In this document: positions 42,120 through 45,252 of the stretch, in pieces
Numbering within the stretch: the first letter of the stretch is position 1
Layout: each line of letters starts with the position of its first letter
Source of the DNA: Leptolyngbya sp. FACHB-8
GTDB lineage: Bacteria > Cyanobacteriota > Cyanobacteriia > Elainellales > Elainellaceae
Assembly: GCF_014695575.1 (NCBI RefSeq)
Contig: NZ_JACJOO010000064.1
Location: 62,001-126,000, forward strand
Direction of reading: 5' to 3'
Length of the DNA stretch: 64,000 bases
Notes under the pieces: model-generated
Database searches by the model: none
What the model saw: the letters and a program-made list of their open reading frames with translations, nothing else
What the model was told of the DNA's origin: nothing
Made by a program: the position numbers and the translations under genes

Positions 42120-43025
42120 TTATCGATCGACCGATTCTAACCCCTCAATGGCTTCGGGATGTCGCTCCAGCCATTGATCTAAGTCTCTAAGAACCAGGTG
42201 TGGAATTTCCCATGGAAAAAGGTGAGCGGTATTGGGGTAACAATGCCACTCACTTTGAGTTAAATGTTGAGCGGTTTCATAGCTGGACGCAGCCGTAATG
42301 TGGCGATCGCCCTCCCCTGCCATGACTAAACAGGGCACCTGAATTTTTTCTAACTCTGCCTGGCGGTTGTAGCGCTGACGCAAAGCTGTGTTGAGGGCTC
42401 GGTTTGCCTGGGGGGATGTTTTTTGATAGGCATACACCGCATCCTGAGCCAGGTATTGGTAGGTTTCTGGGGTGTGCTGATTAATCAGGTAGCGAAAGAG
42501 CGATCGCTTGCCAAACATCTCAATGTTCCAATCCCAACCGGGATTCGCCCAATTCACCAGGGCGGCCACCCCGGTGAACAGATTGTCTTGCCAGGAAATC
42601 GGTGGATGGCTGCCTCGAGGGTACGCCGCTGTTGCCACCAGAACTAGCCCACTGATACGCTCTGGCTGCCGGAGTGCCAGCTCCATCGCTAAAATCCCTC
42701 CTAGCGACCAGCCCAACACCAGACAGCGAGAGATATTCTGCCGGTCTAGCAGGGCCTCCAGATCTGCCAGATGATCTTCCATAACAAAATCTTCCTGGGT
42801 CTGGCTCTGCCCATATCCCCGTAAATCAGGGGCCAGAGTCCGAAAGCGGCGGGACAAGTGTTGGGTAAACACCGACATGCTCCGTCCGCACCCTGGGTGC
42901 CCATGCAAGCACAACACAGGATACCCTTCCCCTTGCGCCAACACATGCAAGGGATAGGCTGACTGAGAAGACGCATTAGAAATCAAACCAGACATAGGCT
43001 CCAGGAAATAACGTTGAACAATCAT
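42120..43025 (-). CDS. Alpha/beta-fold hydrolase
   Basis: The product is 301 residues. It shows the oxyanion-hole phrase HGHPGCGRS, the nucleophile elbow GWSLGG (Ser near residue 107), an acid in VMAGEGDRHI and a C-terminal histidine in NTAHLFPWE, a complete catalytic triad. The substrate is not readable from this; similar proteins include esterases and epoxide or haloalkane-type hydrolases. The first ATG at 43025 is used; an ATG ten codons on is possible. A separate, unrelated-looking hydrolase gene lies at 44156-45064, with the EI24 gene between. Confidence 0.85.
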   Translation of the reverse strand: MIVQRYFLEPMSGLISNASSQSAYPLHVLAQGEGYPVLCLHGHPGCGRSMSVFTQHLSRRFRTLAPDLRGYGQSQTQEDFVMEDHLADLEALLDRQNISRCLVLGWSLGGILAMELALRQPERISGLVLVATAAYPRGSHPPISWQDNLFTGVAALVNWANPGWDWNIEMFGKRSLFRYLINQHTPETYQYLAQDAVYAYQKTSPQANRALNTALRQRYNRQAELEKIQVPCLVMAGEGDRHITAASSYETAQHLTQSEWHCYPNTAHLFPWEIPHLVLRDLDQWLERHPEAIEGLESVDR

Positions 43026-43106: not shown

Positions 43107-44159
43107 CTAATCTAAATTCTGTTCCACAGCAGATTCAGATAGCGCGGCAGCAGATTTATCCACAATCGCTAAATCCCGTTCCTTCATCCAGGGATAAACC
43201 CAGTCACAGAAAAATAGCGTCCCTGCTGTCACACAAACGGGGATTGCGAGCAAGTTCACTAGTGGTACACTCACCAACACCAAACACACCAGCCCAAAAC
43301 TTGCGCTGGCAGGCAGTGTGCGTATAAATACGCCCAACTTCTCCCGAAACCGGAGACGGCGACGCTCTAAAGCAGAGTCTAGAAAATCAAGACAAACAAT
43401 GGTGCCAGCAAGAGCAATACTCAGGGGCGTAGCGATCGCCGCTACCAATGGAACAAACCCCAACACAAACAGCGGCACCCCCACTCCCAGGCTCAGCACC
43501 AGCTTCTTCAATTCATACAGAATGGCTCGGCCAATATCCCGCGCCACCCCAACTTCCACAATGGTCACCTGCCCTGTCTGCCGCTTTTCCAGTTCCTCAG
43601 ACAGCTTGCCGTACCAGGGAGCGCCCAGCAATACTCCAAACTGCAACAGGATAAACCCCGTAACCAGCAGCAGCACCAGGGTGAGCACCAAGCGCACCAC
43701 CCAGAGGAGCGCGATCGCCAACCAATCCGGAATTTCAGCAAACCAATTAGGTAACGCCGGTCGCCAACTGAAGCTCCATTGAGGCCAGGGAATAGACCAG
43801 TTAGAAGGGTTAAGCCAGGTGGGCCAGCTCACATGCCAGCTAGCAGGCCAGTGGGGAAACCATGCGGGTACATGGGTCATCCAGGCCGGAAAGGTAAAGT
43901 GCCAATCCGGTAAGGTGTCGGCCCAGGCAGGAATTTGCGCGGTCCAATGGGGAATGTCGAGGGCGATCGCATCCACCAGGCGCAAACCCCCTGTAATCAG
44001 GGCAGCATAAAGGGTAATCCCCAAAGCAAAGTTAATGGCAATGGGAATCAGGACATATCGCCGCAGGGGAGGGGTTTGAATCAGAAGCCACAGTGCCCGC
44101 AGGGGATAGACAATTCCTGCCAGCAACCCGGCAGGAATGCGCATCAGGCCGTTATTCAT
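43107..44159 (-). CDS. EI24/CysZ-like membrane protein with a tryptophan-heptad insert
   Basis: The product is 350 residues, with an EI24-type start (GLLAGIVYPLRALWLLIQTPPLRRYVLIPIAINFAL) and end (SFGLVCLVLVSVPLVNLLAIPVCVTAGTLFFCDW). EI24/CysZ proteins are membrane proteins; CysZ moves sulfate, but this one's role is unknown. Between the first and next helices (residues about 70-146) lies an unusual segment with 15 tryptophans. Trp occurs every seventh residue at 72, 79, 86, 93 and 100 and again at 125, 132, 139 and 146, mostly preceded by Pro and a small residue (PAW, PDW, PHW). The gene overlaps the upstream hydrolase by 4 nt, so the two are coupled. Confidence 0.8.
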   Translation of the reverse strand: MNNGLMRIPAGLLAGIVYPLRALWLLIQTPPLRRYVLIPIAINFALGITLYAALITGGLRLVDAIALDIPHWTAQIPAWADTLPDWHFTFPAWMTHVPAWFPHWPASWHVSWPTWLNPSNWSIPWPQWSFSWRPALPNWFAEIPDWLAIALLWVVRLVLTLVLLLVTGFILLQFGVLLGAPWYGKLSEELEKRQTGQVTIVEVGVARDIGRAILYELKKLVLSLGVGVPLFVLGFVPLVAAIATPLSIALAGTIVCLDFLDSALERRRLRFREKLGVFIRTLPASASFGLVCLVLVSVPLVNLLAIPVCVTAGTLFFCDWVYPWMKERDLAIVDKSAAALSESAVEQNLD

Positions 44160-45064
44160 GGGTCTATGCCGTACTCAATCCAGTGGAGAATTTCCTGGTT
44201 AACACGTTCTGCAGCCTCATCATAGGGGCAATGGCCTGAATCCGGCAGCTCCACCAGCTTCAACCGCGAGTTAAAGTCGGTCAATTGCCGCCCCCACTGA
44301 ATGGGAATCACGCGATCCTGCTCGCCCCATAGTACCAGGGCAGGAATGTGCAGGTTGTTCAGGAGAACTCGTGTATCGGCACTAAAATCCGTCGCAGTTC
44401 GTGCCCGTACCAGCTTCAACAGCGTTCTCTCAGCTCCCGGCTCTTGGGCTGGAATAATGAAACTGGAAACTAGCTCATCCGTTACGTTCTGGGCATTCGC
44501 ATAGACCTTCTGCAAAGCCGAACGGATAAAAGAAGGGCGACGGGCAACCCGCAAAATCAGACTAATGAGAAAGGGATTTGCAAAAGCAGTTTCGATGGAT
44601 TGCACCATGGATTGCAGCCAGTTGGGCAACATCTCCTGGCGGGTGGAAGGTAACGTCACCAGCACAAGACGCTGCACTAGATCAGGGTCAGCAATGGTAG
44701 TGCTTAGGGCTACAAGTGCTCCCAAGGAGTGCCCTACCAGCACCACAGGTTCCCCCACAAACTGCTCGCAGAAATCACGCACCTGTTCCACCCACAGGTT
44801 TACCCGGTATTCAGTCGACGCTTTTTCTGATGCACCGAAACCTAAGAGATCGAGAGCATAAATCGTGTGATGTTGGCTGAGTGGCAGCAGGTTAGCATGC
44901 CATTGGGTGAGAGCGGCTCCAAAGCCGTGCAAAAACACAATCGGGCATCCGTCGGGGTTGGGCGATCGCAAACAGGTATAGCGCACTCGCCAACCTCGCC
45001 AGATCCAATCCCGTTGTACACCCAGTTGATCCTGCCAGAGAGTAGGGGGGGATCGCCGTGGCAT
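44156..45064 (-). CDS. Alpha/beta-fold hydrolase (cyanobacterial/plastid type)
   Basis: The product is 302 residues. It contains LHGFGAALTQWHAN at the oxyanion hole, VGHSLGALVAL at the nucleophile (Ser near residue 117), LVLWGEQDRVIPI with the acid and LPDSGHCPYDEAAE with the histidine, a full triad. The close-packed DRV/GHCP pattern resembles cyanobacterial and plant proteins of the pheophytinase-like group, but substrate is unproven. I chose the ATG at 45064 over the TTG at 45070. Its stop overlaps the EI24 gene start by 4 nt (ATGA). Confidence 0.88.
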   Translation of the reverse strand: MPRRSPPTLWQDQLGVQRDWIWRGWRVRYTCLRSPNPDGCPIVFLHGFGAALTQWHANLLPLSQHHTIYALDLLGFGASEKASTEYRVNLWVEQVRDFCEQFVGEPVVLVGHSLGALVALSTTIADPDLVQRLVLVTLPSTRQEMLPNWLQSMVQSIETAFANPFLISLILRVARRPSFIRSALQKVYANAQNVTDELVSSFIIPAQEPGAERTLLKLVRARTATDFSADTRVLLNNLHIPALVLWGEQDRVIPIQWGRQLTDFNSRLKLVELPDSGHCPYDEAAERVNQEILHWIEYGIDP

Positions 45065-45252
45065 CCTCAATCAAACCTGATTCGACTCTTCCCATGCTAA
45101 CCTCTTCACCCAGGGGTTTTCATCAGGTGAGGTTTCATCCCCCTTGCTGTCAGTCAGTACTATTCATTTCCAGAATTTTGACAGGTGGCATGGGGCAGCA
45201 AAGCCCGTCCTACACATCAACTACCAAAATCTTCTTGCAGAACCCGTCAAAT

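Follow-up and report, generated by a model that had tools for sequence, protein, structure and literature searches.

The EI24/CysZ-domain membrane protein of Leptolyngbya sp. FACHB-8 carries an insert rich in proline and tryptophan between its two long transmembrane helices. Comparison with homologous sequences shows that this insert arose, in one clade, by expansion of a conserved Phi-P-x-W motif that almost every relative has once in the TM1-TM2 (H2-H3) loop and that has here been multiplied about tenfold. It is a clade-specific expansion of a conserved motif within a known family, and the clade in question is one group of filamentous cyanobacteria. A single loop motif has here become a long repeat that is kept by selection, and a homologue with an intermediate form, L021, is also found. 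The open literature searched contained no paper on cyanobacterial EI24-domain proteins.

The EI24 Protein and its Insert

The analysed window is a stretch of 64,000 nucleotides. The features discussed below are located in it as follows:

43107..44159, minus strand: EI24/CysZ-domain membrane protein of 350 amino acids bearing the insert (open reading frame and PF07264 match)
43722..43955, minus strand: insert of Pro-Trp repeats separating TM1 from TM2, residues 69-146 (count of Trp and PxW, low AlphaFold pLDDT)
43860..43955, minus strand: N-terminal block of the insert, residues 69-100, with W72, W79, W86, W93, and W100 (homologue listing and alignment)
43767..43859, minus strand: middle of the insert, residues 101-131, with variable number and order of units (homologue comparison)
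43722..43766, minus strand: C-terminal block of the insert, residues 132-146, WRPALPNWFAEIPDW (homologue comparison)
43962..44048, minus strand: first long transmembrane helix, residues 38-66, corresponding to CysZ H2b (AlphaFold model and CysZ comparison)
43626..43721, minus strand: second long transmembrane helix, residues 147-178, corresponding to CysZ H3a (AlphaFold model)

The protein matches the whole Pfam EI24 profile (PF07264, positions 1-199 of 199, E=1.4e-31, 110.6 bits against a cut-off of 32). The insert, residues 69-146, reads IPHWTAQIPAWADTLPDWHFTFPAWMTHVPAWFPHWPASWHVSWPTWLNPSNWSIPWPQWSFSWRPALPNWFAEIPDW, and tryptophans are found at residues 72, 79, 86, 93, 100, 104, 108, 112, 115, 121, 125, 128, 132, 139, and 146. 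The preliminary description of this gene reported 15 tryptophans in residues 70-146, with two runs in steps of seven. This count is exact (residues 70-146 correspond to positions 43722-43952 of the window), and permutation of the same residues showed that the pattern is not random. Residues 68-150 contain nine pairs of tryptophans exactly seven apart, compared to a shuffled mean of 2.3 (P=5e-5), and 10 PxW units compared to a mean of 2.5, a number not reached in any of the 20,000 shuffles. The Trp/Pro pattern is thereby confirmed as real and well above chance. A frameshift or an assembly artefact is ruled out by the presence of a similar segment in homologues from about 20 other species.

Origin from a Single Loop Motif

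It had been proposed that a Pro-Trp element is foreign to the EI24/CysZ fold, but this does not hold. A [LIVFT]Px[WFL] motif is found in the TM1-TM2 loop of 45 of the 47 non-expanded cyanobacterial homologues, at the canonical position in 43 of the 47 by our own reading of the listed positions. The three solved CysZ proteins have LPxW or LPxF in the H2-H3 loop as well, namely SLPEW (6d9z), SLPHW (6d79), and WLPDF (3tx3). Since the seed motif is present in both groups, the insert is a multiplied form of a standing motif.

Measured between fixed anchors, the loop of the 47 non-expanded homologues of the tree set has 41, 42, 50, 59, or 63 residues, with 41 and 59 prevailing, while it has 103-145 residues with 12-18 prolines in the 23 expanded ones. 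The intermediate L021 has a loop of 73 residues with three PxW. Beyond this clade, Pfam EI24 homologues have a loop of nearly fixed length, in which the motif occurs once. Unit number and loop length thus vary among the homologues, as the preliminary description anticipated, and the same segment at constant length in unrelated cyanobacteria, which would have pointed to a standard family feature, was not found.

A search of 60 related genomes showed that the nearest homologues belong to the host's own family, and nearly all of these have a similar insert. Insert-bearing relatives include Filamentous cyanobacterium LEGE 07170, which is of the same genus, Drouetiella hepatica, Oculatella sp. LEGE 06141, and Phormidium tenue FACHB-886. 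The short form of the loop is found in Microcoleus, Tychonema, Spirulina, Hydrococcus, Geitlerinema, and Xenococcaceae. When 291 genomes of the class were searched with Pfam, three further expanded proteins came to light outside the family, L127 (family f3) and L128 and L129 (family f16).

In a homologue tree built from 235 columns with the insert excluded, all 23 expanded proteins fall on one side of one branch, so that one change is needed, and L021 is placed beside them. The branch has a support of 61/76 and is kept in 65% of the bootstrap trees. Support for the single origin is therefore weak, and the expanded copies L127-L129 from other families weigh against it. Gain of units is favoured over loss because proteobacterial CysZ has one motif; this is an outgroup argument, apart from the tree.

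The genus g17 of the host's family (L024, L026, and L027 from genomes G017, G032, and G026) has a 41-residue loop with a single LPxW. These proteins sit near the expanded clade in the tree and constitute a natural control for the insert. No EI24 match was found in nine of the 36 genomes of the host's family, and the EI24 gene seems to be dispensable there. Given this and the short loop of g17, the insert is not generally needed. Five of the same-family genomes without EI24 (G008, G016, G020, G022, and G030) are listed as 99-100% complete, and all five encode an Sbp-type sulfate-binding protein.

The Repeat Unit and its Evolution

The unit can be written Phi-P-x-W/Phi-(x-Phi)n, where n is mostly 1 or 2, giving steps of five and seven. 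Over all relatives the motif is repeated 65 times with step 5 and 61 times with step 7, compared to shuffled means of 1.7 and 1.3. Altogether 164 steps are odd and 41 even, an odd fraction of 0.80 against 0.55 after shuffling. Around the tryptophan of PxW, hydrophobic residues occur most often at -5, -3, +2, +4, and +7, and seldom at -4, -1, +3, +5, and +6. Tryptophan itself is not obligatory, as several relatives have LPxI or LPxV. The earlier statement that there is a tryptophan at every seventh residue is thus correct for the FACHB-8 protein but not as a general rule, and the heptad is one form of the unit, not a strict one, since the step of five is as frequent and the tryptophan can be replaced. 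A strict alpha-helical heptad of the coiled-coil type was rejected; its 3-4 spacing would suit the steps of seven, but the proline in every unit and the equally frequent steps of five do not fit.

The first four heptads (IPHWTAQIPAWADTLPDWHFTFPAW / VPTWTASFPHWAIDLPDWKLTAPGW and similar) are conserved by position in the nearest relatives (L001-L007, partial matches included, and L127), and so is a C-terminal W-x-P-x-L-P-x-W-x-x-x-Phi-P-x-W block. These two conserved ends are the two tryptophan runs that were noted at the outset. The middle cannot be aligned by position among the same relatives. When L022 is compared to L017 from the same genus, it has two extra five-residue units as well as a four-residue insertion outside the units. 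Sequence comparison thus shows that units come and go as wholes. The DNA pattern of three heptads occurs nowhere in the FACHB-8 genome except in the EI24 gene; in the 291 genomes of the class, its matches outside EI24 resemble DNA repeats or chance hits.

The idea of a recent tandem repeat expansion needs to be split. Units have indeed been multiplied between TM1 and TM2, but the DNA retains no memory of a duplication, and "recent" cannot be upheld. When the DNA of the FACHB-8 insert is shifted by 15 or 21 bases, its identity is no higher than the encoded protein requires (z -0.4 in both cases), so no residual duplication is seen, and TRF finds only one array, a 12-base repeat in 2.5 copies; recent tandem duplication in this gene was excluded on these two results. 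In all expanded sequences, the third base is equal in 34% of the pairs of proline codons that are five or seven codons apart, compared to 33% of all proline pairs. Only L008 and L013 give hints of short exact DNA copies, with a P of about 0.02-0.03 that is not significant given the 24 sequences, while 15-bp tandem DNA repeats are found within the inserts of L003 and L010.

The protein pattern, in contrast, has been kept. At aligned orthologous positions of the insert the identity is 89% for P, 89% for W, and 43% for x, and the hydrophobic class is kept at 95%. For the pair L003/L004 the insert has a dN of 0.25 and a dS of 1.95, giving a dN/dS of about 0.13, a rough ratio since many dS values are near saturation and the repeat alignment is uncertain. 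The C-terminal core of the same pair has a dN of 0.06 and a dS of 0.77, and the dN of the insert is thus around four times higher. Since the units have lost their DNA similarity and P and W remain 89% conserved, the pattern is maintained by selection and the expansion is not recent. Selection has kept the P, W, and hydrophobic positions, and the x positions have drifted. The pattern is old, yet evolves faster than the core.

Pro-Trp-rich stretches are also found in the antimicrobial peptides indolicidin and tritrpticin (PMC6017362), but this is an analogy only: these are short, cationic, free peptides, while the FACHB-8 insert belongs to a transporter-like protein, in which it forms a loop of about 80 residues with almost no charge. 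The PEVK-rich region of periaxin (PMC7072810) consists of consecutive pentapeptide units with a recurring proline and is predicted to be extended or disordered, and its units may be compared to the LPxIS and LPxVQ units of L022. Again only an analogy is intended and no homology is claimed, as the periaxin region is eukaryotic, highly charged, and not a transmembrane loop.

Structure and Placement of the Insert

The prediction of the insert's structure that had been called for was made, and AlphaFold gave no fold. In the models of FACHB-8 and L015 the cores are confident, while most of the insert has pLDDT block means of about 38-59; for FACHB-8 the block means are 46-59 over residues 81-140 compared to 84-97 in most of the core. 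A known folded domain was rejected on the basis of these low-confidence models and because no sequence match was found in PDB (best E 0.17, an antibody fragment). The first long helix is modelled as spanning residues 30-82, and the second begins at LPNW, residue 138. The short helices within the insert mostly start at P-x-W or just past a proline, as the TM2 helix does, in both low-confidence models; at this confidence it is no more than a hint.

Residues 1-38 contain four K/R and no D/E, while residues 67-147 contain one K/R and five D/E. According to the positive-inside rule, this charge distribution places the N-terminus inside and the insert outside, and the insert is therefore predicted to lie on the outer (periplasmic or lumenal) side of the membrane.

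The Wimley-White interface sum of the insert is -16.2 kcal/mol, which is among the lowest 0.5% of the 70-residue stretches of the open reading frames of the window. Other stretches with low sums belong to the same EI24 gene or to other, probably transmembrane, open reading frames. Some relatives have sums near zero (L014 -0.6, L019 -0.5, and L022 +1.3), indicating that the common feature is an amphipathic pattern and not tryptophan alone. Many tryptophans are replaced by Ile, Val, or Leu in L014 and L022, so anchoring by tryptophan cannot be the whole role.

Possible Roles

The likeliest placement of the insert is at the membrane interface. We consider the chances about even that the expanded seed motif serves as an uncharged amphipathic anchor or cover on the membrane surface at the periplasmic face. 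Each unit would then repeat the local role of the original motif, which opens TM2, the proline starting a turn or capping a helix and the tryptophan lying in the membrane interface. Together the units might form a nearly uncharged, proline-broken chain of amphipathic character round the tip of TM1-TM2, lying against the membrane on its periplasmic or lumenal side. Such a chain could anchor this tip and possibly cover the outer face of an oligomer or the mouth of a pore. A bolder and clearly less probable version is that multiplication of the helix-starting LPxW anchor has created a new type of membrane-surface repeat, where the parity rule (steps of 5 or 7, rarely 6) sets an amphipathic extended chain. 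If true, multiplied LPxW would be a distinct class of interface-binding repeats that alters the seating of a CysZ-type channel in the membrane or its gating by the membrane. The homologues provide a natural series of one, three, and about four to 13 PxW units on one fold, which makes them test material for Pro-Trp interface motifs.

The insert might instead be disordered alone and pack on an adjacent protomer, against its head or its transmembrane region. CysZ assembles into antiparallel dimers, three of which can join into a trimer of dimers, and the dimer interface of IlCysZ uses H2-H3 (PMC5967866); with the protomers inverted, the tip of H2-H3 would come close to the head of the neighbour. 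The low confidence of the single-chain models and the conserved ends around a variable middle in the nearest relatives also agree with such a clasp. However, the inverted topology is known from CysZ and putative for cyanobacterial EI24, and a specific interface is hard to reconcile with a varying number of units in loops of 103-145 residues, making this reading rather unlikely. Equally doubtful is neutral growth by replication slippage in a permissive loop, the insert having no function beyond being tolerated at the membrane. The order of units and the length of the loop do vary, sister species differ by indels of unit length, L003 and L010 have their 15-bp repeats, genus g17 lacks the insert, and in L003/L004 the insert accumulates dN around four times as fast as the core. 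The same pair nevertheless displays the low dN/dS of the insert, and the odd-step rule and the conservation of P and W have outlasted the DNA similarity of the units; neither is the three-heptad pattern matched elsewhere in the genome. It is quite improbable that the tryptophan side chains form an array binding an aromatic pigment, a quinone, or a glycan such as periplasmic peptidoglycan. Their regular spacing and the predicted periplasmic side would suit this, but the tryptophans are exchanged for Ile, Val, or Leu in L014, L017, and L022, and the unconserved gene neighbourhood suggests no ligand.

Relationship to CysZ and Genomic Context

The interface anchor or cover favoured above would be situated on a CysZ-type scaffold. 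The FACHB-8 model and CysZ 6d9z have the same fold (Foldseek E=9.7e-8, TM-score 0.68 by target length), and the model has the two long transmembrane helices, the two hemi-penetrating hairpins, and the head of CysZ. The CysZ sequence profile also matches the protein (E=1e-20), which scores 99.7 bits against the NCBIfam equivalog NF003433, below the cut-off of 140. The H2-H3 loop is about 60-80 residues longer than that of CysZ.

The sulfate-binding motif GLR(R) of CysZ lies between H1 and H2 (PMC5967866). The FACHB-8 protein has P-L-R-R, where Gly is changed to Pro and the Arg residues are kept. The first Arg of this motif (window 44055-44072, minus strand, residues 30-35) is found in 21 of the 23 expanded and in six of the 48 non-expanded homologues, while Trp or Leu takes its place in the majority of the other cyanobacterial EI24 proteins. 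Several of the non-expanded homologues that keep the Arg sit near the expanded clade, and its co-occurrence with the insert may reflect shared ancestry, not a functional link. By analogy to CysZ, sulfate or sulfite is a candidate substrate of the EI24 protein. The FACHB-8 genome also encodes two Sbp-type sulfate-binding proteins and one SulP-family protein, so other routes for sulfate uptake are likely to be present.

The EI24 gene is flanked by two alpha/beta hydrolase genes on the same strand (44156-45070 and 42120-43025, minus strand), of which the upstream one overlaps the start of the EI24 gene by four bases. Apart from L031, which is of the same genus, only L041 has this upstream pairing too. 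Deducing a function from the gene neighbourhood was rejected, as the neighbours are not conserved and gave no lead. In a single case, L039:2950-4805, the EI24 gene is followed by a gene that overlaps it by one base and by eye looks like a TauE/SafE-type sulfite exporter.
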